Notes under the pieces: model-generated
Told to the model about the DNA's origin: nothing
The model's database searches: none
The model's input: only the letters and a program-made list of their open reading frames with translations
Made by a program: the position numbers and the translations under genes
In this document: piece after piece, positions 4,824-64,000 of the stretch
Layout of the letters: every line of letters starts with the position of its first letter
How positions within the stretch are numbered: the first letter of the stretch is position 1
Assembly: GCA_027307335.1 (NCBI GenBank)
Contig: DAHUXD010000012.1
Coordinates: forward strand, 1 to 64,000
Direction of reading: 5' to 3'
From: Acidobacteriota bacterium
Lineage (GTDB): Bacteria > Acidobacteriota > Thermoanaerobaculia > UBA5066 > Gp7-AA6
Length of the DNA stretch: 64,000 nt

Positions 4824-4828
4824 CGCCC

Positions 4829-4880
4829 GTAGGGGCGGGGCTCGTCCCCGCCCGCGGGCGGCCGCAAGGGCCGCCCCTAC
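4829..4880. repeat. 52-bp double-hairpin intergenic repeat, copy B
   Basis: Identical to 4066-4117 over all 52 bases and in the same orientation. It separates the ATPase stop codon from the first permease gene (ATG at 4899). Perfect identity of two copies 763 bp apart implies recent duplication or gene conversion. Confidence 0.95.
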
Positions 4881-4898
4881 GCGCTATGGCCCAGAGCC

Positions 4899-46903: not shown

Positions 46904-48910
46904 ATGCCGGTCCGTAAAGACACGGGCTCCGGGTCTGACAGCGTGCAGCGCAACCCCATCCGGACCTCGGTCGCGAACGCCGTGGACGCCGCGAAGCGGT
47001 ACCTCCTCGCGACCCAGGCCGCCGACGGCCACTGGGTCGGCGAGCTCGAGGGCGACACGATCCTCGAGTCCGAGTACGTCCTGACGATGCACTTTCTCGG
47101 CCGCGCGGGCGAGGAGCGCATCCGGAAGGCGGCCGAGCACCTCCGGCGGAAACAATTACCGACCGGCGGCTGGGCGATCTACGAAGGGGGGCCCGCCGAG
47201 GTCAGCGCGTCGGTGAAGGCCTACTTCGTCCTGAAGCTGATGGGCGACGATCCCGCCGCCCCCCACATGGCGCGCGCGAGAGAGACCATCCTGTCGCTCG
47301 GCGGCATCGAGGCTTGTAATTCCTTCACGCGGATCTATCTCGCGATCTTCGGCCAGTGCTCGTGGGACGACACGCCCGCGGTCCCGCCCGAGATCGTGCT
47401 CCTCCCCGACTCCTTCATCTTCAACATCTACAAGATGTCCTCCTGGTCGCGCGGCATCGTCGTGCCGCTGTCGATCATCTGGGCAAAGAAACCGTACTGC
47501 CCCGTCCCGGATCACGCCGCGATCCCGGAGCTGCACGTGCCGCGCACCGCGACGCACGTTCCGAGGAGCCGGCGCGAGCGGTCCTGGCGCGGCTTCTTCA
47601 CGCGGATCGACCGCTGGCTGAAGCGGGCGGAGGCGGCGGGCTTCACGCCGTTCCGCAAGCGCGCCCTCGAGGTCTGCGAGGCCTGGATCCACGAGCGGCT
47701 GGTGAAGTCCGACGGGCTCGGCGCGATCTTCCCGCCGATCATCAACACGATCATCGCCTTCCGCTGTCTCGGCTACGCGATGGAGGACCCGCGCCTCCTC
47801 GCGCAGGTCCGCGAGCTCGAGAAGCTCGAGGTGGAGGACGACGAGACCCTGCACCTGCAGCCCTGCTTCTCTCCGATCTGGGACACCGCGCTCGTGATCG
47901 AGGCGCTCTCCGATGCGGGGCTGGCGCCGTCCGACCCGACTCTCCTCAAGGCGGGACGCTGGCTCCTCGACCGCGAGGTCAAGGAGGTCGGCGACTGGAA
48001 GAAGGCCTGCCCGGCCGCGGAGCCGGGGGGCTGGTACTTCGAGTACGCCAACGAGTGGTACCCGGACACCGACGACACCGCGGAGGTGCTCACGGCGCTC
48101 TCGCGCGTGCGCTTCCCCGGCGAGTCCGAGGACCTCGCCCGCGAGGGCGCGGTCGCCCGCGGCCAGGCCTGGATGATGGCCATGCAGAACCGCGACGGGG
48201 GCTGGGGCGCCTTCGACAAGGACTGCGACAACGAGGTCCTGACCTACATTCCCTTCGCCGACCACAACGCGATGATCGACCCGAGCTGCGAGGACATCAC
48301 CGGCCGCGCGCTCGAGGCGTTTCACTCGATCGGGGTCCCGGCGGGGCACCCCGCGGTGCGCCGGGCCGCGGCGTTTCTCGACGCGAAGCAGCTTCCCGAC
48401 GGCACCTGGTACGGCCGATGGGGCTGCAACTACATCTACGGGTCCTTCCTCGCGTTGCGCGGACTCCTGCACGCCGGCGAGGATCTGCGCCAGCCGCGCT
48501 TCCAGCAGACGGCCGACTGGATCCGCTCACGGCAGAACCCCGACGGCGGCTGGGGCGAGCTCCCGCACTCCTACGACGATCCGTTGACGAAGGGCATCGG
48601 CCCGTCGACGCCGTCGCAGACCGCCTGGGCCCTCGTCGGGCTCTTCTCGACGGGCGACCGCGACTCCGACGCGGTGCGGCGCGGGGTCGAGTACCTGCTC
48701 GCGAACCAGCAGTACGACGGCTCCTGGAAGGACGACCACTGGACCGCGACCGGCTTCCCCAAGGTCTTCTACCTGCGCTACCACCTGTACGCGACGGTGT
48801 TCTCGCTGCGCGCGCTCGCCCTGTACACGCGCGAGTCGGGACCCAAGAACCGCTTCCCCCACGACGCCGGCGAGACCGCCGAGCGCGCGACCGAGCACGG
48901 AGTGAACTGA
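46904..48910 (+). CDS. shc: Squalene-hopene cyclase
   Basis: A 668-residue cyclase that folds squalene into hopene and diplopterol on the membrane surface. The catalytic acid motif DTDDTA is at 388-393 (central Asp390 equivalent to the proton donor), with the expected preceding EWYP. Several QW repeats are visible (QAADGHWVGELEGD, QNRDGGWGAFDKD, QLPDGTWYGRWG, QNPDGGWGELPHSY, QQYDGSWKDDHW). Length is usual for the family. It is the first gene of a co-directional series with hpnH (1-nt overlap), hpnA, hpnG and a squalene synthase gene. The ATG at 46904 follows a 133-bp leader from an AT-rich element. Also called hpnF. Confidence 0.97.
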   Translation: MPVRKDTGSGSDSVQRNPIRTSVANAVDAAKRYLLATQAADGHWVGELEGDTILESEYVLTMHFLGRAGEERIRKAAEHLRRKQLPTGGWAIYEGGPAEVSASVKAYFVLKLMGDDPAAPHMARARETILSLGGIEACNSFTRIYLAIFGQCSWDDTPAVPPEIVLLPDSFIFNIYKMSSWSRGIVVPLSIIWAKKPYCPVPDHAAIPELHVPRTATHVPRSRRERSWRGFFTRIDRWLKRAEAAGFTPFRKRALEVCEAWIHERLVKSDGLGAIFPPIINTIIAFRCLGYAMEDPRLLAQVRELEKLEVEDDETLHLQPCFSPIWDTALVIEALSDAGLAPSDPTLLKAGRWLLDREVKEVGDWKKACPAAEPGGWYFEYANEWYPDTDDTAEVLTALSRVRFPGESEDLAREGAVARGQAWMMAMQNRDGGWGAFDKDCDNEVLTYIPFADHNAMIDPSCEDITGRALEAFHSIGVPAGHPAVRRAAAFLDAKQLPDGTWYGRWGCNYIYGSFLALRGLLHAGEDLRQPRFQQTADWIRSRQNPDGGWGELPHSYDDPLTKGIGPSTPSQTAWALVGLFSTGDRDSDAVRRGVEYLLANQQYDGSWKDDHWTATGFPKVFYLRYHLYATVFSLRALALYTRESGPKNRFPHDAGETAERATEHGVN

Positions 48911-49911
48911 TGCGATTCCCCGTCCACATGCTGACCGACAACGTCCAGCACCAGGTCAAGAACGCGATCCGCGGCAACAAGCGGTACCCGTTCGTTCTCA
49001 TGCTGGAGCCCCTCTACACGTGCAACCTGGCTTGCATCGGGTGCGCCATCGAGCGGCACACCGGGAAGCTGAAGGACCGGCTGCCGCTGGAGAAGTGCCT
49101 CGAGGCTGTGGACATCTCGCAGGCCCCGACGGTGTCGATCTGCGGTGGCGAGCCGACGATCTACCCGGAGCTGCCGCAGCTCGTGGACGAGATCATCAAG
49201 CGCAGGCGCCAGATCATTCTGTGCACCAACGGCCTGCTCCTCGACGAGAACCTGTACGGCAAGATCGCGCCCCACAAGCGGCTGACGATCAACGTCCACC
49301 TCGATGGAATGAAGGAGACGCACGACTACGTCTGCGCGCGCGAGGGCGTCTTCGACAAGGCGATCGCCATGATCCGGGAGGGCGTGAAGCTCGGCCACCA
49401 CATCATGGCCAACACCACGATCTTCAAGGAGACCTCGATGGACGAGGTCGAGGAGCTCTGCCGGGTGCTGACGGACCTCGGCGTCGAGGGCATGCTCGTA
49501 TCGCCCGGCTACCAGTACGAGTCCGTCGACAGCGACATCTTCCTGTCCCGATCGGAGATGCAGCAGAAGTTCCGCCGGGTGCTGGACATCTCGAAGAAGT
49601 ACAAGCTGACCTCGACGCCGATGTTCCTCGAGTTCGCCGCGGGTCTGCGCGAGTACAACTGCTCGCCGTGGTCGACCGTCACGTACACGCCGAACGGCTG
49701 GAAGGGGCCCTGCTACCTGATCGGGAAGACGTGGTCGCCGACCTTCGAGGAGTTCTGGAACGGCACCGACTGGGCGTACTGGGAATCGCGGCAGGATCCC
49801 CTCTGCCGGAACTGCGCAATGCACTCCGGCTTCGAGGCCTCGGTCGTCCGCGAGCTGCCCAAGCACCCGGGCGACATGGTGCGGATGATCGCCTGGAACC
49901 TGGCGGCGTAG
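48910..49911 (+). CDS. hpnH: Adenosylhopane synthase, radical SAM (HpnH)
   Basis: A 333-residue radical-SAM enzyme that adds the 5'-deoxyadenosyl group to diploptene, giving adenosylhopane, the first extended hopanoid. The [4Fe-4S]/SAM motif CxxxCxxC lies at Cys38, Cys42 and Cys45 (CNLACIGC); CGGEPTIYPE is the GGE motif. The rest agrees with HpnH (VHLDGMKETHDYV, the SPWSTVTYTPNGWKGPCYL region and a C-terminal Cys pair around CRNCAMHSG). The start codon overlaps the cyclase stop (TGATG), so both are coupled. No defects visible. Confidence 0.97.
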   Translation: MRFPVHMLTDNVQHQVKNAIRGNKRYPFVLMLEPLYTCNLACIGCAIERHTGKLKDRLPLEKCLEAVDISQAPTVSICGGEPTIYPELPQLVDEIIKRRRQIILCTNGLLLDENLYGKIAPHKRLTINVHLDGMKETHDYVCAREGVFDKAIAMIREGVKLGHHIMANTTIFKETSMDEVEELCRVLTDLGVEGMLVSPGYQYESVDSDIFLSRSEMQQKFRRVLDISKKYKLTSTPMFLEFAAGLREYNCSPWSTVTYTPNGWKGPCYLIGKTWSPTFEEFWNGTDWAYWESRQDPLCRNCAMHSGFEASVVRELPKHPGDMVRMIAWNLAA

Positions 49912-49984: not shown

Positions 49985-50971
49985 ATGGACCTCGTCACCG
50001 GCGGCACCGGCTTCGTCGGCTCCCACGTCGTTCGCGCCCTTCTCGCCCGCGGCCGCGCGGTGCGCTGCCTGGTGCGCGCCGGGAGCCGGCGCGAGAACCT
50101 CGAGGGACTTCCGATCGAGATCGTCGTCGGCGACCTGACCGACGCAGCCTCCCTCATCCCGGCGCTCTCCGGCGTCCGCACGCTCTACCACGTCGCGGCC
50201 GACTACCGGCTGTGGGCACGGAACCCGAACGAGCTCTACCGGGCCAACGCCGGCGGCACGGACAACGTCCTCGCCGCGGCCAGCGCGGCCGGCGTCGACC
50301 GCGTCGTGCACACGAGCTCGGTCGCCGCCCTCGGGCTCACGCGCGACGGATCGCCGGCCGACGAGACGACGCCGGTCGAGCGCTCGCGCATCATCGGCCA
50401 CTACAAGAAGTCCAAGTACGACGCCGAGCGGGTCGCTCTGTCGTGGGCCGCTCGCGGGCTCCCCGTCGTGATCGTCAACCCGTCGACGCCGGTCGGCGAA
50501 GGCGACATCAAGCCGACGCCGACCGGGCAATTGATCGTCGACTTCCTGAACCGCCGGATGCCGGCGTACGTGGACACGGGGCTGAACCTCGTCGACGTCC
50601 GCGACGTGGCGGCCGGCCATCTCGCCGCGGCGGAAAAGGGCCGCGTGGGCGAGCGATATATCCTCGGCAACCGCGACATGACGCTCCGGGAGATCCTCGA
50701 GACGCTCGCGCGGCTGACCGGCCTGCCCGCCCCTCGCGTGCGGCTGCCCCACTGGATCCCGCTCACCGCCGCCGCCGTCGCGACCGGCGCCGCGCGGGTC
50801 ACCGGCCGTCCGCCGCGCGTCTCGCTCGAGAGCGTGCGGATGTCGACGCACCGGATGTTCTTCGACGCCGGCAAGGCGATCCGCGATCTCGGACTGCCGC
50901 AGACGCCGGTGGACGAGGCGCTGTCCCGCGCCGTCGCCTGGTTCCGGGAGAAGGGCTATGTCGGCCGGTAG
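49985..50971 (+). CDS. hpnA: Hopanoid-associated sugar epimerase (HpnA)
   Basis: A 328-residue short-chain dehydrogenase/epimerase-like protein. The nucleotide-binding motif GGTGFVG is at 6-12; the catalytic pair Tyr140 and Lys144 (YKKSK) matches YxxxK; Ser/Thr in HTSSVAALG precede. HpnA is found in most hopanoid loci. It is presumed to act on the ribosyl or related side chain, but its reaction is not established. It is preceded by a palindromic repeat and overlaps hpnG by 14 nt. Confidence 0.93.
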   Translation: MDLVTGGTGFVGSHVVRALLARGRAVRCLVRAGSRRENLEGLPIEIVVGDLTDAASLIPALSGVRTLYHVAADYRLWARNPNELYRANAGGTDNVLAAASAAGVDRVVHTSSVAALGLTRDGSPADETTPVERSRIIGHYKKSKYDAERVALSWAARGLPVVIVNPSTPVGEGDIKPTPTGQLIVDFLNRRMPAYVDTGLNLVDVRDVAAGHLAAAEKGRVGERYILGNRDMTLREILETLARLTGLPAPRVRLPHWIPLTAAAVATGAARVTGRPPRVSLESVRMSTHRMFFDAGKAIRDLGLPQTPVDEALSRAVAWFREKGYVGR

Positions 50972-51650
50972 CCCGCGCGTCCTGATCGTGACCGCGATGC
51001 CGGAGGAGCTCGGCGCGCTCTCGGCGCGCCGGCTCCCCGACGGCGTGCGCGCCGCGGCCACCGGCGAGGGACCCCGGCGCGCCGCACGACGGGCCGCCGA
51101 GCTCTGCGACATCCACCGGCCTTCGGTGCTCCTCGGCGCCGGCGTCGCCGGCGCGCTCTCCACCGACCTCGCGTTCGGCGAGATCCTCGTCGCGCGGCGC
51201 GTGTGCGACGCCTCGGGCGACGCTCCGCACCCGGACGCCGCTCTCTCGGAGCGCGCGGCCGCGATCCCGGGGATCCGCGGAGGCGCGCTCTTCTCCGCCG
51301 ACCGCATGCTGCTCGCGCCGCGCGAGCGCTCCGAGCTCGCCGCGAGGATGGCCGACGATCATCCGGCCGCCGTCGACATGGAGTCGGCCGGCTGGGCCCG
51401 CGTCGCGAGCGCCCGCGGCATCCCCTACATCGTCGTCCGCGCCGTCAGCGATACCGCCGACGAGGACCTGCCGGCCTACCTCTCGCGCTGTTACGACCCC
51501 GAAGGAGGGATTCGCCGTGCGAAGGTGATCCTCCATGCGCTCGCGAAACCGGCCACCATCCCGAGGCTCCTCGCGATGCGCCGGCGCGTGCGGGAGTGCG
51601 GCGAGCGGCTGTCCGCGTTCCTCGAGCACTTTCTCTCGGGGGTCCTGTGA
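50958..51650 (+). CDS. hpnG: Adenosylhopane nucleosidase (HpnG)
   Basis: A 230-residue member of the purine nucleoside phosphorylase/MTA-nucleosidase superfamily, placed as HpnG: it removes adenine from adenosylhopane to yield ribosylhopane. Signs: VTAMPEELGALSARRLP at the N terminus, GAGVAGALSTDLAFGEI, VDMESAGWARVA (ribose-binding Glu in the family's ME motif) and IVVRAVSDTADED (catalytic Asp region). The best support is the location between hpnA and the squalene synthase gene, since on its own it could be read as an MTA/SAH nucleosidase. The ATG is inside hpnA's 3' end. Confidence 0.9.
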   Translation: MSAGSPRVLIVTAMPEELGALSARRLPDGVRAAATGEGPRRAARRAAELCDIHRPSVLLGAGVAGALSTDLAFGEILVARRVCDASGDAPHPDAALSERAAAIPGIRGGALFSADRMLLAPRERSELAARMADDHPAAVDMESAGWARVASARGIPYIVVRAVSDTADEDLPAYLSRCYDPEGGIRRAKVILHALAKPATIPRLLAMRRRVRECGERLSAFLEHFLSGVL

Positions 51651-52564
51651 GCGGCGCCGGGGCCGCGTCGATGCGCCGGCTCGAGGATCTCCTCGAGAAG
51701 ACGAGCCGGACCTTCGCGCTCTCCATCCCGGTGCTGCCCGATCCGACGCGGCGGGAAGTCACCATCGCGTATCTGCTGTTTCGCATCGCGGACACGTTCG
51801 AGGACGCCGCGCACTGGAGTCCCGAGGACCGCATCGCCGCCCTCGCCGACTTCGAGGCGCTGCTCGCGAGCGACGACCGGACGCGGGCCGAAGCCCTCGC
51901 GAAGGACTGGGTCGCTCGCGACGTCGCCCGCCACGCGGGCTACCGGGAGCTCGTGGCCGAGACGCCGTTCGTGCTCGAGGCCTTCCTCGCGCTCTCGCCC
52001 GGCGCGGTGCCGCCGATCCGCGAGCACGTGATCCGGTCGGCGCGCGGCATGGCGTCGATCGTGGCGCGAACGCGCTCGGGCGAGCTGACGCTCCACTCGA
52101 TCCGGGAGCTCCAGGACTACTGCTACCTCGTTGCGGGAATCGTCGGCGAGATGCTCACCGAGCTCTTCGTCCTCGACCGCGCCTCGCTCGCCGGCATCGC
52201 GTCGTTCCTCCGCGAGCGGGCGGCCACGTTCGGCGAGGCGCTCCAGCTCGTCAACATCCTGAAGGACTCCGCGGGGGACGCCGAGGAGGGGCGGCGGTAC
52301 CTGCCCGAGGAGGTGCCGGTTTCGGAGGTGTTCGCGCTCGCGCGGCGGGACCTCGGCGTCGCGGGTGACTACATCCGAGAGCTTCAGGCGGCGGGCGCGC
52401 CGCGAGGCATCGTCGAGTTCACCGCGCTGCCGGTCCGGCTTGCGTGGGCCGCGCTCGAGCGCGTCGAGAACCGCGGGCCCGGCGCGAAGGTCAGCCGGCC
52501 CGAGGTGTTCCTCATCGTCCAGAAACTCAAACGGGCTCTGGATAAGAACGAGCCCGTGGCGTAA
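51647..52564 (+). CDS. Squalene synthase-like enzyme
   Basis: A 305-residue trans-isoprenyl diphosphate synthase (squalene/phytoene synthase superfamily) that condenses two farnesyl diphosphates, presumably through presqualene diphosphate to squalene. First Asp-rich motif DTFED at 49-53, second near D207-SAG-D211 (NILKDSAGDAEEG). The N-terminal KTSRTFALSIPVLP and YCYLVAGIVGEMLTELF resemble the eukaryote-type squalene synthase more than HpnC or HpnD. No HpnE oxidase lies in the window, so this enzyme may make squalene alone. GTG 51647 overlaps the hpnG stop; ATG 51671 is an alternative. Reductive squalene synthases need NADPH; that step is inferred. Confidence 0.88.
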   Translation: MSGAGAASMRRLEDLLEKTSRTFALSIPVLPDPTRREVTIAYLLFRIADTFEDAAHWSPEDRIAALADFEALLASDDRTRAEALAKDWVARDVARHAGYRELVAETPFVLEAFLALSPGAVPPIREHVIRSARGMASIVARTRSGELTLHSIRELQDYCYLVAGIVGEMLTELFVLDRASLAGIASFLRERAATFGEALQLVNILKDSAGDAEEGRRYLPEEVPVSEVFALARRDLGVAGDYIRELQAAGAPRGIVEFTALPVRLAWAALERVENRGPGAKVSRPEVFLIVQKLKRALDKNEPVA

Positions 52565-53966: not shown

Positions 53967-56069
53967 CTACTGGTAGGCGCCGCGGGCGGTCACGACGCCG
54001 GGCCGCCGCTCGCCGATCCAGGCGGCGAGCACGACCGACAAGAAAAAGATCGGCGTGCCGATGGCCGCGAGCGCGAGGAACCAGTAGGCCTTCCCGAACA
54101 CCCCCAGGATCGCCACGAAATAGATGAAGTCGCGGCGCGAGACCTCGTCGAGGATCTCGGTCAGCCGCGACCGATGGTTCGGAGACACCGTCGTCAGGAG
54201 CGGGCCCGCGGCCCCCCTCGGTCGCATCGCATGGAAGTAGACGAACGCCGCGCCGAGGATCGTGCCCGCGACCGCCACAGCGCCGAGCCGGAGCGGCCAC
54301 TCGTCATCGACCGCGTTGCTCCAGGCGAACGCGAACGCCGCGAAGACCGCGACGTGCACGACGTTGTCTCCCCAGAAGTCGAGCGCCCCGCCGAGGCGCG
54401 ACTCCTTGAATTTCAGCCGCGCGAGCTCCCCGTCGCAGCCGTCCAGGATCGAGTGCATGAGAAAGAGCAGGCCACCCACGAACTGGCCCGGCGCCGTCGA
54501 CGAGCCGAAGCACCACGCCGCCGCGAGGCCGAGCAGCGTGCAGAAGAGGGTCATCGCGTTCGGCGTGACCGGCGTGTGCGCGAGCTGGCGTGTGACCGCG
54601 AGCGAGATCTTCCGGCTGACCAGCCGGGTCAGCAGCCCATCCTGCGTCTTCACCAGTTCCTTCAGGAGACGCCTCTCGGCCGCGGGCACGTCTTGCTTCG
54701 ACGCGATCACGAGCGGCGCCTCGACGCCGGCCGGCGGGACGCCCGGGGGCAGCGCCCCGGCCCACGCGGCCGTCACGAGGGGGAGCCGTGAATTCGACGC
54801 GAGCGCGCGGGTGAGCGCTTCGGGCCGGTCGGTCTCGACGATCGCGCCGGGTCCGAGACGACAGAGGCGATCCTCCGGAACCGGCGCCTCGCGCAGCGCG
54901 CGCAGCCACCGCGGCGTCGCGACGACGTCTTCGGGCAGCAGCACCGTGCGCCCCGGCGGCAGCGGCCGCGGCGCGGTCAGCGCGAGCGCCCCCGTCCCCT
55001 CGAGCACCGGACCAGCGGCCGCGGCATCCTCCCCGGCGACCCAGACGCGATCGAAGCCCGCCCGCCGTGCGGCGAGCGCCGTCCGGCGGAGCAGCGGCAG
55101 GCCGAGGAGGTTCGACCGGATCGCGGCGGACCCGCCGCCCGACGGCAGGAGCAGGAGCGTCGACGCCGCGCGCTCGGCGGCGTCCGTGAGCGGGCGGAGC
55201 CGGGCGGCCAGCCGCGCCGCGATGTGTCCGGCGGCCTCGTCGCGAAAGAGCGCGAAGCTCGGCCAGGCGTTGACGTCGATGACGAAGATCTCTCCGTCGG
55301 GCGTCACGATGGCGTCGCCGCCCCAGACGTCGAGCTCGAGGGCGTCGGCGGCGCGGCATGCGATCGAGCACAGCGCGGCGGGATCGAACCGATGGCCCTG
55401 GGCCGGATGCTCCTTCGGATAGAACCACCGGAACCAGGCGGGACCCGCCGAAGAAAAGCGAGGCTTGCCGTCGCGATGCGGCGCGGCGATCCCGTAGAAC
55501 TTGACCACGTCCCCCGCCACGTGGCGCTGCACCACGGCCCGCGTCAGGCCGCGGGCGCGAAGGTGGCCGAGCGCATCCTCGACCGATTCGACGCCCGTCG
55601 CGAAGCGGACGTCCCCCTCGCGGGTCTTGTGCTCGGCCGCCTGCTTGACCCAGCACGCCGCATAGAGCCGCGACTCCTCCCTCCCGCGCGGCACGGGCAC
55701 CGCGCCGTCGAGCAGCCGGCTCTCGGGCACCGGGACACCGGCTTCCTCGAAGAGACGGAGGGACCGCTCGCGATGCGTGTTGCCCACCGAACGCGCGGAA
55801 TTGATGACGCAGACGCCGCGACGCTCCCAGCGTGCGAGCGCGTCGAGCGCCGCGGTTCCCTCGCACATCGCGAAGACGAGCGGCGGCAGGTCCACCGCTT
55901 CGGGGTCGAGCTCCTCGGTCCTCAGGTAGGCGACGGAGAAGCCGAACTGCTCGAGACGCGCGCCCGTGGCTTCGAGAATCGCGGCGTCGTCCGCCTCGCG
56001 GAACGGGGAGTGCTCCGGCTCGCGGTACACGGCCCAGCAGGCCGCCCCTCCCGGCGCGGGGCGCGTCAC
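53967..56069 (-). CDS. ATP-grasp / nucleotidyltransferase-like / CDP-alcohol phosphatidyltransferase fusion
   Basis: A 700-residue three-domain protein. Residues 1-300 are ATP-grasp-like: Lys142 (WVKQAAEHKT), GGDAIVTPDGEIFVIDVNAWP with metal-binding Asp265 and Asn267, as in RimK/Ddl ligases. Residues 303-460 resemble a nucleotidyltransferase (LLGLPLLRRTALAARRAGFDRVWVAG), but the N-terminal nucleotide-binding Gly-rich/Arg motif is lost, so it is probably not catalytic. Residues 490-700 are a CDP-alcohol phosphatidyltransferase with about six helices and the full motif Asp543, Asp546, Gly547, Ala550, Arg551, Gly560, Asp564, Asp568. A nucleotidyltransferase-CDP-alcohol transferase pairing resembles di-myo-inositol-phosphate synthases; adding ATP-grasp is unusual. 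The GTG start overlaps the HAD gene stop. Reaction unknown; a phospholipid headgroup synthase or ligase is suggested. Confidence 0.85.
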   Translation of the reverse strand: MTRPAPGGAACWAVYREPEHSPFREADDAAILEATGARLEQFGFSVAYLRTEELDPEAVDLPPLVFAMCEGTAALDALARWERRGVCVINSARSVGNTHRERSLRLFEEAGVPVPESRLLDGAVPVPRGREESRLYAACWVKQAAEHKTREGDVRFATGVESVEDALGHLRARGLTRAVVQRHVAGDVVKFYGIAAPHRDGKPRFSSAGPAWFRWFYPKEHPAQGHRFDPAALCSIACRAADALELDVWGGDAIVTPDGEIFVIDVNAWPSFALFRDEAAGHIAARLAARLRPLTDAAERAASTLLLLPSGGGSAAIRSNLLGLPLLRRTALAARRAGFDRVWVAGEDAAAAGPVLEGTGALALTAPRPLPPGRTVLLPEDVVATPRWLRALREAPVPEDRLCRLGPGAIVETDRPEALTRALASNSRLPLVTAAWAGALPPGVPPAGVEAPLVIASKQDVPAAERRLLKELVKTQDGLLTRLVSRKISLAVTRQLAHTPVTPNAMTLFCTLLGLAAAWCFGSSTAPGQFVGGLLFLMHSILDGCDGELARLKFKESRLGGALDFWGDNVVHVAVFAAFAFAWSNAVDDEWPLRLGAVAVAGTILGAAFVYFHAMRPRGAAGPLLTTVSPNHRSRLTEILDEVSRRDFIYFVAILGVFGKAYWFLALAAIGTPIFFLSVVLAAWIGERRPGVVTARGAYQ

Positions 56070-56743
56070 AGCGCCACCCTCTCGAGATCCGCGAGCCGCG
56101 CGATCACGACGTCCTCCGGGCAGCAGGCTCCTTCCGGAGCGCCGCCCGGGCGGAGCCAGACGTGGCGCATGCCGAGCGCCCGCGCTCCCGCCATGTCGCG
56201 CGACGGCGAGTCGCCGACGAAGACGGCTTCATCCGGGACCGCGCCGAGGGCATCGAGCGCGGCGCGGAAGATCCGCGCGTCGGGCTTCTTGCAGCCGATG
56301 ATCGTCGAATCGATCGCGACGCCGATCGACGGCGCGAGGCCGACTTCGCGGCAGACCGAACCGAGATTGCCGTAGAAGTTCGAGACGATGCCGAGGCGGT
56401 ACCGTTCCGAGAGGCGCGACAGGAGCGCCGCGCTCTCCGAGAGCCGGGCGAGCGAGTCCTCTGCGAAGCGGTCCCCGATGCGCCGCAGCCGTTCCGGGTC
56501 CTCGCCCAGCCGTTCGGCGAGACCGGATGCCACCCGGCCGACGAGCTCGCGAAAGCCGGCGTCCTGGCCGATGGTTCCCTCGAGACAGTCGCACGCGCCG
56601 TAGAAGGCGGGCTCGAACCGTTCGCGCGAGACCGGAACGCCCTCCTCGCCGAACAGACGGAAGAACCGCTCCTTCCAGGGCACGCCGTCGGCGTCGAGCG
56701 TGCCGCCGAAGTCGAAGAGGATCGCTCGCGCCGACGCGCTCAT
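56066..56743 (-). CDS. HAD-superfamily hydrolase with DFGGT motif
   Basis: A 225-residue HAD-like protein. Motif I is DFGGTLD at 11-17: the nucleophile Asp11 is present, but the usual second Asp (DxD) is Gly13, a variant seen in some HAD groups and possibly changing activity. Motif II SNFYGN (Ser/Asn), motif III Lys in GCKKPDARIF and motif IV VFVGDSPSRDMAGA are intact. A four-helix C1-type cap spans about 20-90. Phosphatase on a small phospho-alcohol is plausible: it is coupled on both sides (4-nt overlaps) to a UPF0104 membrane protein and to the CDP-alcohol transferase fusion. Confidence 0.88.
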   Translation of the reverse strand: MSASARAILFDFGGTLDADGVPWKERFFRLFGEEGVPVSRERFEPAFYGACDCLEGTIGQDAGFRELVGRVASGLAERLGEDPERLRRIGDRFAEDSLARLSESAALLSRLSERYRLGIVSNFYGNLGSVCREVGLAPSIGVAIDSTIIGCKKPDARIFRAALDALGAVPDEAVFVGDSPSRDMAGARALGMRHVWLRPGGAPEGACCPEDVVIARLADLERVAL

Positions 56744-57804
56744 CGCGCCATCCCCCTCTCCCTCCGGGGTTCGGTGTCGGAACCCTGCCCCTCGTCAACC
56801 TCAGGGGTCGTCGCGCCGCGCCGCCCGCCGAGGACGAGTCCGGGCAGAACCCAGAGCAGCTCTCGCGTCCGCCGCACGAGGCCGTATGCCACGCCGGCCG
56901 AGACGGGCATCCCGAGGAGGACGAACACGGCCGTGCGCACGCCCTCGGCCGTCCCGGCGCGGCCGGGGACGAACAGGAACATGTTGTTCAGGAGCATCGC
57001 GAGCGACTCGACCGCGAACGCCGTGGTCCAGCCGCGCCCGGGCGCGAGCATCCGCAGGATCAGATAGGTCTCGAGCAGCCCGCCGCACCATCCCGCAAAA
57101 GTCCACGCCGCTGCGGCGAGAAAGTCGCGGTGGTGGTGCGCGTAGAAGCGGCGGATGACGCCGTCGAGCGCATGCGCGCTTTCCCGGTAGCGCTCGAGCC
57201 GGGCGCGGAGCGGCCGGAAGCGCGAGAGGCCCGCGACGATCGGGCCGAAGCTGCCCTTCTGAAGGGCCCACGTCATCAGCACGAGGAGGCCGAAGAGGAT
57301 CACGAGGCTGACGATCGCCGCCCAGCGGGCGGCCGCGGGCAGGTCGAAGTCGACCAGGGCGACCGAGAGGCCCGTCGCGACGAAGAGGGCCTGCGAGAGC
57401 AGGTGCGCGTGTTTGAAGATCGTCACCGACGCGATCGCCCGCGAAGTCTCGAGGCGCGAGCGAAGCATCGACGCGCGCACGGGCTCGCCGGCGACGCTGC
57501 CCGGCGAGAGGTAGTTCAGGCTGTTGCCGACGAGGTAGATGCGCAGGAGCTCCGGCACGCTCGAGAGCGGCGGCCGCGGCTCCATCACGGCGCGCCACCC
57601 CAGGACGAAGGCGATCTCGGCGAGGAGATAGAGCGCCGTCAGCCCGAAGAAGCGCCACCCGATGAGGGCGAGGTTCGCCTGGACCGACGCCCACCCCGTC
57701 CTCCAGACGAGCAGCGCCGCCAGCGCGACGCCGGCCGCCACGAGGGCGATTCGGATGTGTCGGGCGCGCGCGGCGCGGCGGTCACGGGAGGGCATTTCTT
57801 TCAT
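56740..57804 (-). CDS. UPF0104 (MprF/AglD-like) membrane protein, copy A
   Basis: A 354-residue integral membrane protein with about eight helices, of the lysylphosphatidylglycerol-synthase TM (UPF0104) family, whose members flip or transfer lipid-linked groups. Signature: LYLVGNSLNYLSPGSVAGEPVRASML, FAGWCGGLLETYLILRML and SLAMLLNNMFLFVPGRAGTAEGVRTAV. Paralogue of the protein at 61820, most similar in the last hundred residues. ATG 57804 is used (57795 is a second in-frame Met). The stop overlaps the HAD gene start. It lacks the C-terminal aminoacyltransferase domain of full-length MprF, so only the membrane function is present. Confidence 0.9.
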   Translation of the reverse strand: MKEMPSRDRRAARARHIRIALVAAGVALAALLVWRTGWASVQANLALIGWRFFGLTALYLLAEIAFVLGWRAVMEPRPPLSSVPELLRIYLVGNSLNYLSPGSVAGEPVRASMLRSRLETSRAIASVTIFKHAHLLSQALFVATGLSVALVDFDLPAAARWAAIVSLVILFGLLVLMTWALQKGSFGPIVAGLSRFRPLRARLERYRESAHALDGVIRRFYAHHHRDFLAAAAWTFAGWCGGLLETYLILRMLAPGRGWTTAFAVESLAMLLNNMFLFVPGRAGTAEGVRTAVFVLLGMPVSAGVAYGLVRRTRELLWVLPGLVLGGRRGATTPEVDEGQGSDTEPRRERGMAR

Positions 57805-57881: not shown

Positions 57882-58808
57882 TTACGCGGCCTTTTCCTCG
57901 GAGCCCTTCGGCCGCGACGCGCCCTTGCGCGGCAGCACGCGGACGACCTGCCGGACGACCGATGGCACCAGCGTCGGCCGGAGGAGCCGCGGGTCGTAGG
58001 ACTTCAGCCGCTGCTCGTTCTCCGCGAGACAGGTTTCGAGGAAGGAGCGCAGGGAAAAGTCGCCGAAGACCGAGTGGGATTTCAGCGTGAACCCGGCCTG
58101 GGTGTGGTCGCGGTCGGCGGCCGGCCCGGCCGCCTCCGGCGCGCCCCTCTCCTTCTTGTCTCCCCCGCCGGCCATCTGGAGCGCCCCCTTGAGGCGGTCG
58201 AAGGCCTGGGCCGCGATGTTCCAGGCCCTCCAGAGGTCGAAGGCGGGCCGCAGCGCGACCGGACGGCGGGCCCGCAGGTACGCCGCCCAGTTGACGATGA
58301 AGAGGATGTGCCGGGCCTCTTCCTGCATGATCTGCTCGAAGACGTCGGTCAGGGCCTTCGGGAAGAGCTCCGCTCGGACGCCGAGCCGGAACAGGCCGAA
58401 GGCGAAGAAGGAGTCGAGACACTCGCCGTAGCCCGTCCTCAGGAAGGCGCGGGTCGGGTCCGCCGGGACCTCCGGCTCGGGAAACGGCATCACCGGAATG
58501 CCGTAGTGCCGGGTGAGGAGCCGGAGGACGTCGGCGTGCCGTCCCTCCTCGTATCCCTGGAGGCTGATGGCCTCGGCGAGGAGGGGGTCCTGCTCGGTGT
58601 CCCCCAGAGACTGCACCTTCACCGCGGTCGCGGCCTCGGTCCGGGTCGCCTCGTTCCAGACCGGCATCGACTTCAGGCGCTCGAGTCCCTCGGCATCGAG
58701 ATCCGGCCAGCGGATGTCCTCCGGCTTGAACGGATCGTGGGTGTCGATGAAGGTCCGGCAGAGCAGATTCTTGTGCTCCTCGGAGCCCAGAACGAGCGAT
58801 TTGGACAT
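57882..58808 (-). CDS. Ferritin-like diiron protein (putative oxygenase/desaturase type)
   Basis: A 308-residue helical protein with the diiron signature: EGRHADVL (ExxRH) near residues 88-95 and QEEARHILF (EExRH) near 162-170, separated by two helices as in ferritin-like oxidases. A further Glu in the first helix and Glu near 145 could complete the site. A Gly/Ala-rich low-complexity insert (GGGDKKERGAPEAAGPAA) lies at about 215-232 and the C terminus is basic. It is divergent from dxs (53 bp) and 77 bp upstream of UPF0104 copy A, in the same orientation. Substrate unknown; a lipid hydroxylase or desaturase would fit the context, but this is a guess. Confidence 0.75.
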   Translation of the reverse strand: MSKSLVLGSEEHKNLLCRTFIDTHDPFKPEDIRWPDLDAEGLERLKSMPVWNEATRTEAATAVKVQSLGDTEQDPLLAEAISLQGYEEGRHADVLRLLTRHYGIPVMPFPEPEVPADPTRAFLRTGYGECLDSFFAFGLFRLGVRAELFPKALTDVFEQIMQEEARHILFIVNWAAYLRARRPVALRPAFDLWRAWNIAAQAFDRLKGALQMAGGGDKKERGAPEAAGPAADRDHTQAGFTLKSHSVFGDFSLRSFLETCLAENEQRLKSYDPRLLRPTLVPSVVRQVVRVLPRKGASRPKGSEEKAA

Positions 58809-58821
58809 GGAAAAGGTAGAG

Positions 58822-58827
58822 TATCAT
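58822..58827 (+). promoter_or_regulatory. Possible -10 element (TATCAT) for dxs
   Basis: TATCAT in the 53-bp region between the diiron protein gene and dxs, about 35 nt before the dxs ATG. GGAAGAAG near 58853 is a credible ribosome-binding site. No clear -35. Confidence 0.35.
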
Positions 58828-58861
58828 GCGCGTTTCTCATGTACGGGGGACTGGAAGAAGC

Positions 58862-60802
58862 ATGCCCATTCTGAGCCGCATCGAGGGTCCGCAGGACCTC
58901 AAGAGGCTGTCGCACGAACAGTTAGCGGAGGTCGCCCAGGACTGCCGCGACCTGATCATCCAGACGATCACGAAGACCGGAGGGCACCTCGCCTCCAACC
59001 TCGGCGTCGTCGAGCTGACCCTCGCCCTGCACCGCGCCTTCGACAGCCCGAAGGACCGACTGGTCTGGGACACCTCCAACCAGTGTTACACCCACAAGCT
59101 GGTGACGGGGCGCCGGGACCAGTTCCCGTCGATCCGCACCCCCGGAGGCCTGTCCGGCTTCGCCGAGCCGACCGAAAGCGTCCACGACACCCTGGCCGCG
59201 GGCCACGCGGGCACCGGCCTTTCGTACGGCCTCGGGATGTCGATCGCGACCCAGAACGAGGTCGGGGACCCTTACGTGGTCGTCATCGTCGGGGACGGCT
59301 CGATGACCTCCGGCCCGAGCTACGAGGCCCTGAACAACATCGTCCACGTCAAGCCGAAGCGCCTGATCGTCATCTTCAACGACAACGGCTGGTCGATCTC
59401 CGAGAACGTCGGCTGGCTCGCCCACTGGCGCAACCGCTTCGAGCTCCACCCCACGTACCAGAAGTTCATCTCGACCGGCCACAGCTTCTTCAAGCGGTTG
59501 CCGAAGGGCGACAAGGCCTGGGAGCTCGCGCGCAAGGTCAAGAGCTCGGTCGAGGGCCTCTTCTTCCCGAACCTGATCTGGGACGAGCTCGGGTTCCACT
59601 ACGTCGGGCCGGTCGACGGCCACGACTACCGCGAGCTCGAGGAGGCTCTGGCCCGGGCGAAGGACGTCTCGAAGGACGGAACCCCCGTCGTCATCCACGC
59701 CCTGACCCACAAGGGCCGCGGCTTCCAGCAGGCCGAGCAGAACCCGTCGAAGTTCCACCAGCCGGGGACGCCGACCGGCGCCGCCGGTGCGGGCGTCCGG
59801 CTGACGTACTCGCAGGCCTTCGCGAAGACGCTGATCACGATGATGGAGAAGGACCCGAAGATCGTCGCGATTTCCGCGGCGATGCTCGAGGGCACCGGCC
59901 TGATCGAGGTGAAGAAGAAGTTCCCCGAACGCGTGTACGACGTCGGCATCGCCGAGGAGCACGCCGTGATCATGGCCGGCGGCATGGCCAAGGCGGGCTG
60001 GAAGCCGGTCGTCTCGATCTACTCGACGTTCCTCCAGCGGGCCTTCGACCAGCTGATCCACGACGTCGCCCTGCAGAACCTCGGGGTGACGATCTGCATC
60101 GACCGGGCCGGCCTCGTCGGCGACGACGGCAAGACCCACCAGGGCGTCTTCGACATCTCCTACACGCGCGTGATCCCCAACATGACGGTCGCCGCGCCCA
60201 AGGACGAGAACGAGCTCCAGCACATGCTGGCGACCGCGATCGGCTCCGGGCGCCCCTGGGCGATCCGCTATTCGCGCGGGCTCGCGCTCGGCGTCGACCT
60301 CGACCCGGCCCTGAAGACGATGGCGGCCGGCCGGGGAGAGATGCTCCGCGAGGGCCGGGACCTGACGCTGTTCGCCTACGGCTCGATGGTCGCGATCGCG
60401 ATGGCGGCGGCCGAGGATCTCGAGAAGCGCGGCATCTCGTGCGGCGTGGCCAACGCGCGTTTCGCAAAGCCGCTCGACCTGGAGCTGCTCAGGCGGATCG
60501 TCGGCGCGACGCCGCGGATCCTGACGCTCGAGGAGCACCTCGAGATCGGCGGCTTCGGCGCCGGCGTCCTCGAGGCCTTCCACGAGGCGGGCCTGCCCGC
60601 CGACGGGCTGCGGGTCCACGCGATCGCCGATCAGTTCATCGAGCACAGCCCGCAGGCGCAGCAGCGCCACAACCTGAAGCTGGACGTCGAGGGCGTCGTC
60701 GAGAAGGCGCTCGCCGCGTTCCCGGATCTCGTCCGCTCGCCCGCCGCCCCGACGGGCGGCTCGCGGACCGAGAAGAAATTCGCGGAGACCGTGACCTGGT
60801 GA
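58862..60802 (+). CDS. dxs: 1-deoxy-D-xylulose-5-phosphate synthase, divergent
   Basis: A 646-residue TPP enzyme making DXP from pyruvate and glyceraldehyde 3-phosphate, entry step of the MEP isoprenoid pathway. TPP motif GDGSMT is at 144-149 with NDNGWS following; GHAGTGLSYGLG at 114-125; His42 in GHLASNLG; AEEHAVIMAGG holds the catalytic Glu; IYSTFLQRAFDQLIHDVA and DRAGLVGDDGKTHQG match the family. Unusual: the family motif GHQxYPHK reads SNQCYTHK (72-79), and AEEH replaces the common AEQH. It may be a specialised second Dxs. Start ATG 58862, preceded by GGAAGAAG; the 12-residue upstream extension is unlikely. It overlaps ispH by 4 nt (GTGA). Confidence 0.92.
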   Translation: MPILSRIEGPQDLKRLSHEQLAEVAQDCRDLIIQTITKTGGHLASNLGVVELTLALHRAFDSPKDRLVWDTSNQCYTHKLVTGRRDQFPSIRTPGGLSGFAEPTESVHDTLAAGHAGTGLSYGLGMSIATQNEVGDPYVVVIVGDGSMTSGPSYEALNNIVHVKPKRLIVIFNDNGWSISENVGWLAHWRNRFELHPTYQKFISTGHSFFKRLPKGDKAWELARKVKSSVEGLFFPNLIWDELGFHYVGPVDGHDYRELEEALARAKDVSKDGTPVVIHALTHKGRGFQQAEQNPSKFHQPGTPTGAAGAGVRLTYSQAFAKTLITMMEKDPKIVAISAAMLEGTGLIEVKKKFPERVYDVGIAEEHAVIMAGGMAKAGWKPVVSIYSTFLQRAFDQLIHDVALQNLGVTICIDRAGLVGDDGKTHQGVFDISYTRVIPNMTVAAPKDENELQHMLATAIGSGRPWAIRYSRGLALGVDLDPALKTMAAGRGEMLREGRDLTLFAYGSMVAIAMAAAEDLEKRGISCGVANARFAKPLDLELLRRIVGATPRILTLEEHLEIGGFGAGVLEAFHEAGLPADGLRVHAIADQFIEHSPQAQQRHNLKLDVEGVVEKALAAFPDLVRSPAAPTGGSRTEKKFAETVTW

Positions 60803-61782
60803 ACCCCGAGCACGACTTTTCCGGTATCCACGTCGAGAAGCTCCTGATCGCCGGCCTCCGCGGCTTCTGCGCGGGCGTCGTCCGGGCGATCGACGTCGTC
60901 GAGAAGGCCCTGCAGGTCATCGACGGTCCCGTCTACGTCCGCAAGGAGATCATCCACAACCGCTACGTCGTCGACGAGCTTCGCGAGAAAGGCGCCCGCT
61001 TCGTCGAGGAGGTCGACGAGGTGCCGGACGACGCGGCGCTGATCTACTCGGCGCACGGCATCGCGCCCGAGGTCCGGCGGATGGCCAGCGACAAGAACCT
61101 CCGCACGATCGACGCCACGTGCCCTCTCGTGACCAAGGTGCACCTCGAGGCGATCCACTACGCCCGTCAGGGCTACACGATCATCCTCGTCGGCCACCAC
61201 GACCACGACGAGACGGTCGGCACGCTCGGCGAGGCGCCCGCGGCGATCCGCCTCGTCGAGACGAAGGAGGACGCGGAGAGGGTGACGGTCCCCGATCCCG
61301 ATCGGATCGCGTACCTGACGCAGACGACCCTCTCCATCGACGACACGCGCGAGATTCTCGCGGTCCTGAAGCGCCGCTTTCCGAACCTGAGAGCGCCTTC
61401 GAAGCAGGACATCTGTTACGCCACGCAGAACCGCCAGGACGCCGTCAAGGCGATGGCGCCGCGCGTCGACATGCTCCTCGTGCTGGGGGCGCCCAACTCG
61501 TCGAACTCGCTCCGCATGTGCGAGGTGGCGAGGGCGAACGGCGTCGCGTCGCACCTGATCGAGCGGGCAGCCGACATCCGGCCGGAGTGGCTGCGGGGAG
61601 TGCGGGTGCTCGGGCTGACGGCGAGCGCCTCGGCGCCGGAGATCCTGGTCCAGGAGGTCGTCACCTTCGCTCGCGAGCGCCTCGGCGTCACTTCGGTGGA
61701 AGAGTTCGAAACGGTGAAGGAGGACGTCTCCTTCCCGTTGCCTCAGGAGCTCAAGTCGCTCCTGCCGGTCCGGGTCTCGTAA
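60799..61782 (+). CDS. ispH: 4-hydroxy-3-methylbut-2-enyl diphosphate reductase
   Basis: A 327-residue [4Fe-4S] enzyme, last step of the MEP pathway, giving IPP and DMAPP. Cluster ligands Cys24 (GFCAGV), Cys108 (ATCPLV) and Cys206 (DICYATQ) are all present, as are His54 (IIHNRYV), the SAHG motif, His136 with Glu138 (HDETVGT) and the substrate-binding SSNS of NSSNSLRM. Length is normal. It is coupled to dxs by GTGA, so both MEP genes are co-transcribed and probably feed the hopanoid operon at 46904. It is followed after 37 nt by UPF0104 copy B. Confidence 0.96.
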   Translation: MNPEHDFSGIHVEKLLIAGLRGFCAGVVRAIDVVEKALQVIDGPVYVRKEIIHNRYVVDELREKGARFVEEVDEVPDDAALIYSAHGIAPEVRRMASDKNLRTIDATCPLVTKVHLEAIHYARQGYTIILVGHHDHDETVGTLGEAPAAIRLVETKEDAERVTVPDPDRIAYLTQTTLSIDDTREILAVLKRRFPNLRAPSKQDICYATQNRQDAVKAMAPRVDMLLVLGAPNSSNSLRMCEVARANGVASHLIERAADIRPEWLRGVRVLGLTASASAPEILVQEVVTFARERLGVTSVEEFETVKEDVSFPLPQELKSLLPVRVS

Positions 61783-61819: not shown

Positions 61820-62914
61820 ATGAACCGGCCGGGCGCGCCCGACGCGGCCCTCGAACGATCGTCCGCAACCGACCGCGGCCCGGTCCGCCGCGGGCGCCGG
61901 GTCTTGCGCGTCGCGCTCTTCCTCGGAGGGCTCGTCCTGCTCGCGGCGATTCTCGTTCGGGTGGGCTGGCGCCCCGTCCTCGAGAACCTCGCCCGGGTCG
62001 GACCGTGGTTCCCCGCGCTCGTCGCGCTCTATGCGCTCGCCCAGCTCTCCTTCGCCGCGGGCTGGTGGGTGCTGACCGGGCCGCGGCCGCGCCCCCTGTC
62101 TTTCGGCGCGCTCTTTGCCGCGTACCTCGGCGGCGACTCCGTCAATTACTTCACGAGCGTGGGCGGCGAGCCCGTCAAGGCGGAGCTCGTCAAGGAGCGC
62201 CTCGGCTTCTCGCACGGCCTCGCGACCGTGGCCGTGCACCGCCACGCCGACGTCCTCGCCCAGTGGATCTTCCTGACGCTGGGCGTCGGCGTCGCGCTCG
62301 TCCGCTTCGACCTGCCGGCGGTCGCCCGGATCGCGGCGCTCGCGAGCCTCCTCGTTCTCGGCGCGATGGTGCTCACCATGACGGTGGGACTGCGCCGCGG
62401 GGCCTTTGCGCCAATCATCGCCGGGCTCGCGCGCGTCCGCATCCTGCGGCGCCTCGGGGGTCTCGAGCCCGCCGCGCGCCGCCTCGACGCGCGGATCGGG
62501 GCGTTCTACCGCGAGAGGACGGACCACTTCGGCATCGCCGTCGCCTGGTGCTTCGCGGGGTGGTGCGGCGGCCTTCTCGAGACGTACCTCGTCCTGCGGC
62601 TGCTCGTCCCTTCGCGAGGCTGGCCGACCGCGATCGCGATCGAGTCGCTCGCGATGGTCCTGAACAACATTCTCCTGTTCATTCCCGGCCGCGTCGGCAG
62701 CGCCGAGGGCGTCCGGATCGGCGTCTACGCGCTCGTCGGCCTGCCGCCGGCGCCCGGCACCGCTTACGCGCTGGTGCGCCGCGGCCGCGAGCTCCTGTGG
62801 CTCGTCCCCGGCTTCGTCGTGCTGTTGAAGCGCCACGTGCTCGAAACCGGCGGCGAGGAAACGCCGGCTGTCGAAGAAACCGCCCGCCCAGTCTCCGTGG
62901 AGTCCCGCGCGTGA
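61820..62914 (+). CDS. UPF0104 (MprF/AglD-like) membrane protein, copy B
   Basis: A 364-residue integral membrane protein paralogous to 56740: GGDSVNYFTSVGGEPVKAELVKERLG, FAGWCGGLLETYLVLRLLVPSRGWPT and SLAMVLNNILLFIPGRVGSAEGVRIGVYALVG. An Arg-rich cytoplasmic N terminus precedes TM1 (about 28-46). The C-terminal tail is acidic. The GTG of the nucleotidyltransferase gene overlaps its stop. Presumed to move or flip the lipid product of the neighbouring enzymes; no direct proof. The presence of two copies suggests either two lipid intermediates or a duplicated system. Confidence 0.9.
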   Translation: MNRPGAPDAALERSSATDRGPVRRGRRVLRVALFLGGLVLLAAILVRVGWRPVLENLARVGPWFPALVALYALAQLSFAAGWWVLTGPRPRPLSFGALFAAYLGGDSVNYFTSVGGEPVKAELVKERLGFSHGLATVAVHRHADVLAQWIFLTLGVGVALVRFDLPAVARIAALASLLVLGAMVLTMTVGLRRGAFAPIIAGLARVRILRRLGGLEPAARRLDARIGAFYRERTDHFGIAVAWCFAGWCGGLLETYLVLRLLVPSRGWPTAIAIESLAMVLNNILLFIPGRVGSAEGVRIGVYALVGLPPAPGTAYALVRRGRELLWLVPGFVVLLKRHVLETGGEETPAVEETARPVSVESRA

Positions 62915-63637: not shown

Positions 63638-64000
63638 ATGAGCCGGAAGCCCACCCAGTGCTGGGGCATCTACCGCGAGCTCGCGCACTCGCCCGGCCGC
63701 GAGACCGACGACGCCGAGATCCTGCGCGCCACGGCGGCGGAGCTCGAGCGCCTCGGCCTCGCCGTCTCGCTGAAGGCGCCGGACGAGCTGCCCGAGGTCG
63801 ACGATTTCGGCGCCGTTCCTCCCCACCTCTTCGTGATGTGCGAGCGCGTGGCGGTCGTCGAGAAGCTCGCGGCCTGGGAGTCGCGCGGCACGCGGGTCGT
63901 GAACCGGCCGTCGGGAATCCGAAACACCGATCGCGAGCGGACGCTCGCGCTGTTCCGTGCGGGCGACGTTCCGTATCCCCGCACGCGGCCGGTCGAGACG
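63638..64000 (+). CDS. ATP-grasp-like protein, paralogue of the fusion N terminus (partial)
   Basis: The first 121 residues of a protein that continues beyond the window. MSRKPTQCWGIYRELAHSPG matches the start of the 53967 fusion (ACWAVYREPEHSP), followed by the same pattern in order: DDAEILRATAAELERLGLAV, HLFVMCER, WESRGTRVVNRPSGIRNTDRERTLALF and GDVPYPRTR. Only the N-terminal part of ATP-grasp is visible, so catalytic residues cannot be assessed. It is preceded by the intact nucleotidyltransferase gene (11-nt gap containing repeat sequence). Whether a CDP-alcohol transferase follows, as in the fusion, is not visible. Confidence 0.85.
   Translation, partial: MSRKPTQCWGIYRELAHSPGRETDDAEILRATAAELERLGLAVSLKAPDELPEVDDFGAVPPHLFVMCERVAVVEKLAAWESRGTRVVNRPSGIRNTDRERTLALFRAGDVPYPRTRPVET

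Follow-up and report, generated by a model that had tools for sequence, protein, structure and literature searches.

Gene organization of the locus

We analysed a stretch of 64,000 nucleotides (the window) comprising positions 1 to 64,000 of contig DAHUXD010000012.1 in the metagenome-assembled genome (MAG) GCA_027307335.1 of an Acidobacteriota bacterium. Its central element is a minus-strand gene at 53967–56069 that encodes an ATP-grasp domain, a degenerate nucleotidyltransferase domain and a cytidine diphosphate (CDP)-alcohol phosphotransferase domain in one polypeptide. As stated in the original prediction, which was made from the letters alone, this region encodes a single chain of 700 residues, in a frame of 700 codons that opens with GTG; the GC contents at its three codon positions (0.74/0.54/0.91) follow the pattern of a real gene. 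The fusion gene is preceded by genes for a HpnL-like membrane protein (LPG_synthase_TM; 56740–57804, minus strand; PF03706, 5e-31; TIGR03476, 136 bits, below the cut-off of 195.65) and a HAD phosphatase (56066–56743, minus strand; Pfam, 1.4e-19). Start and stop codons overlap by four nucleotides both between the HpnL-like and HAD genes (ATGA) and between the HAD and fusion genes (GTGA), and we therefore regard the fusion gene as the third and last gene of a coupled operon headed by the HpnL-like gene. It is a real gene architecture and so far a one-off. We propose that the protein represents a diverged paralogue in which two CDP-inositol headgroup enzymes are fused, and that it acts at the membrane, most likely on a hopanoid acceptor, a reading that we judge to be about evenly balanced between right and wrong.

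Domain structure of the fusion protein

The three-domain reading of the original prediction is supported by the predicted folds and the transferase motif. The two halves of the protein were aligned and folded apart; when the full-length fusion was aligned with the two partner families, transferase rows were misplaced on the ATP-grasp region. Residues 1–295 (55185–56069, minus strand), delimited by model, Foldseek and conservation, were modelled by AlphaFold (AF2) with a pLDDT of 93.6 and a pTM of 0.91, and Foldseek retrieved ArgX, LysX, PsnB, RimK and Ddl at E values of about 1e-14. Structure prediction of the N-terminal region, the check proposed at the outset, yielded ATP-grasp, and as far as a model can tell this fold is certain. 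Pfam and NCBIfam profiles respond weakly and do not by themselves decide its assignment. Pfam gives RimK at E=0.041, and TIGR00768 (RimK/LysX; cut-off 143.4) scores 19.4 bits with the fusion and 21.2 bits with the stand-alone copy described below. Likewise, the cut-off of PF05770, the ITPK profile, is not reached; 7 of 36 family members match it, the best at E=0.0027, and the fusion copy has no match. The domain belongs to an unnamed, uncharacterised family within the ATP-grasp superfamily. In all 36 aligned sequences of this family, D252, D265 and N267, putative metal residues whose roles are assigned by homology only, are invariant, as is the putative ATP lysine K142, which the fusion copy keeps; P270 and S271 are also invariant across the family.

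Several features of the fused copy weigh against a conventional role in the pathway. Its KRGDxH loop carries R143Q (R in 35/35 other sequences) and D145A (D in 32/35), 7 of 57 conserved ATP-grasp columns deviate as compared with 0–4 in nearly all others, and in both trees its branch is the longest among the three copies from Acidobacteria. Having lost two near-invariant residues and lying on the longest branch, the fused ATP-grasp may have changed its substrate or lost activity. Taken further, the fusion might be a decaying or moonlighting paralogue in which the ATP-grasp half is dead and only the transferase works, or an assembly artefact; its occurrence in one MAG only, among the genomes and loci searched, would fit such a view, and an assembly error, though improbable, is conceivable in a MAG contig. 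We nevertheless consider decay or artefact unlikely. The putative residues K142, D252, D265 and N267 and all transferase residues are intact, the operon is coupled and the codon-position GC normal, and the partners are only about 50% identical to the genome's other copies, which makes a chimera with these copies impossible.

The middle domain (residues ~302–475; 54645–55166, minus strand), assigned by alignment and by its match to AF2299, had been described as lacking an intact nucleotide-binding loop. The alignment confirms that the GxGxR loop and the lysine are missing, but the same loss is found in every member of its family; the active-site R and K of IPCT are absent. By contrast with this degenerate domain, the C-terminal CDP-alcohol phosphotransferase (residues ~480–700; 53970–54632, minus strand), recognized by profile, motif and fold, scores 34.1 bits with PF01066 (cut-off 22) and has the complete motif with exact spacing (D543/D546/G547/A550/R551/G560/D564/D568), as had been noted from the letters. 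The pattern DxxDGxxAR(x8)Gx3Dx3D is invariant in all 22 transferase rows with letters. The residues originally singled out, namely Asp265, Asn267, Asp543, Asp546, Asp564 and Asp568, all lie where they had been placed and are invariant in their families.

Residues 296–700 were modelled with a pLDDT of 89. AF2299 accounts for the top four Foldseek hits, which extend over about 390 columns and both AF2299 domains (E=1.7e-13), followed by IPCT-DIPPS (4mnd) and PIP synthases. According to this model the middle and C-terminal domains have the known AF2299-type architecture, and only the attachment of ATP-grasp is new; the remark that nucleotidyltransferase–CDP-alcohol transferase fusions are known was correct. 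Since the best NCBIfam match of the fusion is the IPCT/DIPPS family (NF041135, 87.9 bits) and 4mnd is among its top folds, the product might also be soluble, that is, a di-inositol-phosphate-type solute made from CDP-inositol and inositol phosphate as by IPCT-DIPPS. We regard this as very unlikely, given that the score is far below the family cut-off of 580 and that the HpnL-like, HpnN, HpnM and MlaA neighbours described below point to a lipid of the membrane or outer membrane.

An unfused operon and the probable origin of the fusion

About 6 kb away from the fusion lies an unfused operon on the plus strand. It starts with a second HpnL-like gene (61820–62914), matched by library profiles, and continues with an intact nucleotidyltransferase, likely a cytidylyltransferase (62899–63627, start approximate; Pfam NTP_transf_3, 3.5e-12), and a stand-alone ATP-grasp gene (63638–64000, on to contig position 64489 past the window). 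Beyond the window, up to 69293 of the contig, follow genes for a class III aminotransferase, a Gfo/Idh oxidoreductase, a CDP-alcohol transferase with a degenerate nucleotidyltransferase domain and a myo-inositol-phosphate synthase. The R, K and D residues typical of IMPCT are conserved in the intact nucleotidyltransferase (77/78, 78/78 and 78/78 rows, respectively; active-site residues taken from PMC12275187). Nucleotidyltransferase, CDP-alcohol transferase, HAD phosphatase and inositol-phosphate synthase are all present in the region, split over the two operons. One HpnL-like paralogue (56740–57804 and 61820–62914) heads each operon, which suggests a separate flippase-like partner for either product.

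In a relative of the same family (G002) one operon, located directly after dxs and ispH, comprises the genes for HpnL, HAD (orthologous to the HAD gene of the fusion operon), nucleotidyltransferase, ATP-grasp, aminotransferase, Gfo/Idh, CDP-alcohol transferase and inositol-phosphate synthase in this order. The partners are unfused, with the same gene order, in the source genome and in G002. ATP-grasp and transferase genes are exactly two genes apart in G002, and the intervening genes, encoding aminotransferase and Gfo/Idh, are both absent from the fusion operon. The simplest history is duplication of the operon followed by loss of these two genes. The fused copy is 47–51% identical to the unfused copies and, judged by sequence, is a diverged paralogue of two pathway enzymes.

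No second ATP-grasp/transferase fusion was found in 80 loci, 101 relatives and 396 genomes of the phylum, or in 95 Rokubacteria-phylum, 295 Bacteroidia and 199 Elusimicrobia genomes searched with ATP-grasp alone; of these last three sets, long frames were inspected afterwards in Rokubacteria and in the Elusimicrobia neighbourhoods. The novelty claimed for an ATP-grasp domain on a CDP-alcohol transferase holds within this sample. Other pairs of genes from the same cluster do fuse. A Rokubacteria locus (L159:2621–4126; genome G528) joins an intact nucleotidyltransferase and an ATP-grasp domain of the same family in a frame of 502 residues with no stops, these two genes also share a frame in L157 (Rokubacteria) and L119 (Bacteroidales), and in P. 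veroralis the transferase is fused to HAD (PMC9246714). Other long Rokubacteria frames around ATP-grasp were rejected as overrun of GC-rich frames. An apparent shared frame in L171 (Elusimicrobia) proved wrong, with stops lying between the genes, and similar signs of shared frames at other loci of that set were left out of account. Given these other pairs, the fusion in the source genome is one more combination of single-pathway genes, and the fusion of ATP-grasp with nucleotidyltransferase in Rokubacteria implies that the two probably share a substrate. By itself, the fusion is not a new enzyme class; it is a paralogue, seen only once, within a conserved pathway.

Distribution of the ATP-grasp family and two types of clusters

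A scan with one genome per species revealed at least 571 confirmed loci of the ATP-grasp family, and the neighbourhoods of the best 80 were examined. Most of the genes for nucleotidyltransferase, transferase and HAD are present wherever the contig is long enough. Type I clusters (50/80), found almost exclusively in Bacteroidetes, contain nucleotidyltransferase, ATP-grasp and transferase genes, often together with LPG_synthase_TM, HAD and inositol-phosphate synthase, and have no aminotransferase. Type II clusters (30/80) consist of HAD, nucleotidyltransferase, ATP-grasp, aminotransferase, Gfo/Idh and AF2299-type transferase genes and occur in Acidobacteria, Rokubacteria, Elusimicrobia, Alphaproteobacteria (Hyphomicrobiales) and Desulfobacterales. 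An inositol-phosphate synthase of either the Bacteroides type or the mycothiol INO1 type is encoded near many loci of both types.

Type I is the alternative inositol-lipid cluster that Heaver et al. 2022 (PMC9246714) located near the inositol-phosphate synthase gene of most Prevotella and of B. vulgatus. Two of its bearers, P. veroralis and B. vulgatus, produce inositol phosphoceramide; the genes that the paper lists for the cluster are those for nucleotidyltransferase, transferase and HAD, and an ATP-grasp is never mentioned (PMC9246714). From the locus tags 13095, 13105 and 13115 given there, the gene between nucleotidyltransferase and transferase should encode it. The ATP-grasp would put a name to a gene so far missing from the alternative route to inositol lipids in gut Bacteroidetes.

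Association with hopanoid genes

Both operons lie among hopanoid and isoprenoid genes. The original prediction noted neither the unfused partner genes that begin at the end of the window (from 63638) nor the hopanoid character of the region. On the plus strand, squalene-hopene cyclase (shc; 46904–48910; TIGR01507, 681 bits over 46949–48835, above cut-off) is followed by genes for a hpnH-like radical SAM protein (48910–49911; named by position and by eye, no profile), a hpnA-like epimerase (49985–50971; position and by eye), a hpnG-like phosphorylase (50958–51650; TIGR03468, 113 bits, under cut-off) and a hpnD-like member of the squalene/phytoene synthase family (51671–52564; position and by eye, 60% match in locus L046). 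Between the two operons, Dxs-like (58826–60802) and IspH-like (60799–61782) proteins are encoded on the plus strand, with conserved neighbours in G002 (71% and 77%, respectively). The minus-strand gene at 57882–58808 encodes a ferritin-like protein of 308 residues which matches no family over cut-off and probably also belongs to the hopanoid region; its counterpart in G002, 65% identical, neighbours dxs.

Comparable arrangements exist elsewhere. In a Hyphomicrobiales MAG (L059) genes for INO1, HAD, nucleotidyltransferase, ATP-grasp, aminotransferase, Gfo/Idh and transferase are inserted between hpnA, hpnC, hpnE and shc on one side and a HpnL-like gene, mlaA and hpnN on the other, with HpnC, HpnE, Shc and HpnN above their cut-offs. 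Acidobacteria and Hyphomicrobiales have hopanoid genes interspersed with those of the cluster, and HpnN- and HpnM-like genes lie near the cluster in three Rokubacteria. In one Rokubacteria locus the type II cluster is directly preceded, at L053:2270–3460 and 4589–8551, by genes for a second nucleotidyltransferase–CDP-alcohol transferase, a HpnL-like protein, an INO1-type synthase and a HpnN-like RND transporter, which may represent another paralogous headgroup branch.

Among the genomes tested, shc is present in 21 of 25 with type II clusters and in none of 10 without aminotransferase; the latter are mostly Bacteroidetes, so that phylogeny confounds the contrast. Elusimicrobia are more informative: of 199 genomes, 20 have the ATP-grasp gene, 18 have shc and 14 have both, which amounts to shc in 14/20 genomes with ATP-grasp versus 4/179 without (Fisher p 9.6e-14, with related species not being independent). 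Where ATP-grasp loci of Elusimicrobia have enough flank, an AF2299-type transferase is present in 13/13 shc-positive but only 1/5 shc-negative loci (p 0.0016). In the Elusimicrobia loci L168–L172, from genomes without shc, type II headgroup genes occur with no transferase nearby.

Other observations count against a hopanoid acceptor. Four of the 25 type II genomes have no shc over cut-off, including the well-assembled Acidobacteria G306 and G341, and given these two the hopanoid link is not absolute. In Rokubacteria shc occurs in 91/95 genomes, which are hence uninformative on this point. The pathway might thus decorate diacylglycerol or ceramide, the acceptors proposed for the Bacteroidetes cluster (PMC9246714), with the hopanoid neighbours reflecting a shared location of membrane-lipid genes or an ancient linkage; the absence of shc from type I genomes (0/10) and from G306 and G341 is in line with this. 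We consider such acceptors possible though not probable, as they leave the strong co-occurrence of cluster and shc in Elusimicrobia, where shc is rare (18/199), the uneven distribution of the transferase there, and the interleaving of cluster and hopanoid genes in Acidobacteria and Hyphomicrobiales to be accounted for. A hopanoid is the likely acceptor because it is the transferase, responsible for the acceptor-picking step, that follows hopanoid synthesis; headgroup genes can persist without shc. The setting of the cluster suggests an unrecognised inositol-decorated hopanoid.

Two known hopanoid modifications were considered as alternative roles. The cluster might replace HpnJ, which forms the cyclitol ether, an idea rejected because the source genome has its own HpnJ over cut-off on another contig (G000:C14:22033–23433); it probably also makes bacteriohopanetetrol cyclitol ether. 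Likewise, the cluster aminotransferase could correspond to HpnO, a class III aminotransferase-like protein (PMC12583986), an assignment weakened by the finding that Elusimicrobia without shc retain the aminotransferase in the cluster. Among the papers searched, none brings together hopanoids and inositol headgroups, or ATP-grasp and CDP-inositol.

Possible kinase or ligase activity of the ATP-grasp domain

The original prediction held that the architecture would join amide or ester ligation to phospho-alcohol transfer. By the architecture alone this is not supported: the family sits in inositol-lipid clusters that often lack an amine-forming gene, and its closest profile relatives in the PDB are a graspetide ligase and ITPKs, so that phosphorylation is at least as likely. 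In the search of the family profile against all PDB sequences, the ligase PsnB was best (2.7e-5), followed by the ITPKs of Entamoeba (2e-4), Arabidopsis (ITPK4, 1.4e-3) and human (2e-3); the next ligase appeared only at 0.1, and Ddl and LysX were absent from the matches. The stretch common to the family and the ITPKs is the C-terminal D...DxN.(W/F)PS(F/Y), as seen in hidden Markov model alignments to 1z2n, 7pup and human ITPK1.

ITPK1 phosphorylates inositol-3-phosphate made by INO1 (PMC12077091), a precedent that fits the cluster because the neighbouring synthase makes inositol-3-phosphate. A HAD-like domain forms part of Arabidopsis ITPK4 (PMC7614388), an arrangement curiously reminiscent of the HAD gene adjoining the fusion.

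Two points tell against a kinase: the nearest structures are those of the ligases ArgX, LysX, PsnB, RimK and Ddl, and the inositol pyrophosphate kinase PPIP5K2 appears only at rank 37 of the Foldseek search with residues 1–295. The sequence of the ATP-grasp domain is similar to those of inositol-phosphate kinases, its fold to that of ligases. A true ligase would attach an amino acid or carboxylate to the amine formed by Gfo/Idh and aminotransferase, and the transferase would then load the acylated aminocyclitol phosphate on the lipid. Besides the fold and the PsnB match, the presence of aminotransferase and oxidoreductase in type II clusters argues for this, and 35-aminohopanetriols are known to carry amide-linked amino acids. 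We nonetheless find a ligase doubtful: the same ATP-grasp is kept in Bacteroidetes clusters without aminotransferase, the fusion operon itself lacks aminotransferase and Gfo/Idh, and the family has D-x-N in place of the E-x-N that is usual in RimK, LysX and Ddl. A kinase seems slightly more likely and would give every gene of the cluster a task.

Proposed pathway

Taking into account the gene content of the clusters and the properties of the domains, we propose the following route. In a first step with strong precedent, inositol-phosphate synthase would form inositol-3-phosphate. The ATP-grasp enzyme would then use ATP on this compound, most probably attaching a further phosphate in the manner of ITPK1, perhaps at C1; in type II clusters Gfo/Idh and aminotransferase would also convert a ring hydroxyl to an amine. 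The intact nucleotidyltransferase, with its conserved active-site residues, would produce the CDP-cyclitol, from which the CDP-alcohol transferase, as its motif and predicted fold suggest, would transfer the phospho-cyclitol onto an acceptor in the membrane and release cytidine monophosphate, its dead nucleotidyltransferase domain being structural. Finally, HAD phosphatase may strip the extra phosphate and the HpnL-like protein may flip the product. The fusion protein probably forms another headgroup of a related kind from CDP-cyclitol supplied by the adjacent intact operon.

In its broadest form, our model would have bacteria of at least five phyla use a CDP-cyclitol route with an ITPK-like kinase, fused here to the headgroup-loading transferase, to make a hopanoid that bears phospho-(amino)inositol; this whole chain of assumptions is rather unlikely to hold. 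If true, the hopanoid-linked version in several phyla would represent a new class of hopanoid headgroups and show bacteria using inositol phosphates in a new way. The fusion establishes a direct tie between the CDP-alcohol transferase step and an uncharacterised family of ATP-grasp proteins. The interest lies in an overlooked, ITPK-like ATP-grasp family of bacterial inositol-lipid synthesis and in a hopanoid-linked variant of the pathway.

Comparison with known systems

The fusion combines traits of several known systems. With the ITPKs (PF05770; PDB 1z2n, 7pup, 2q7d) it shares the ATP-grasp fold, the C-terminal D...DxN..PS(F/Y) and the inositol setting; in contrast to them, the family scores below the Pfam cut-off and its overall fold is slightly nearer to ligases. 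PsnB, RimK and LysX have the fold and the nucleotide-binding lysine in common with it; they differ in the D-x-N position, and type I clusters offer no carboxylate-pathway setting. The C-terminal half resembles AF2299 of Archaeoglobus fulgidus (PDB 4o6m, 4o6n, 4q7c), which likewise joins a cytidylyltransferase-like to a membrane domain; the fusion has an extra ATP-grasp in front. The cytidylyltransferase-like domain of AF2299 is inactive. IPCT-DIPPS (NF041135, PDB 4mnd), also a nucleotidyltransferase–CDP-alcohol transferase, is the closest family for this half; unlike in IPCT-DIPPS, the middle domain of the fusion is dead, the live nucleotidyltransferase is a separate gene, and the score lies far below the family cut-off.

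At the level of gene clusters, the closest counterpart is that of Heaver et al., in which nucleotidyltransferase, CDP-alcohol transferase, HAD, inositol-phosphate synthase and LPG_synthase_TM genes occur together as in the source genome. Bacteroidetes loci have an ATP-grasp of the same family between nucleotidyltransferase and transferase, as here. By contrast, aminotransferase and Gfo/Idh genes, hopanoid neighbours and the fusion of ATP-grasp with the transferase are additional features of the source genome, and its transferase is of the AF2299 type, with a nucleotidyltransferase domain that is dead.

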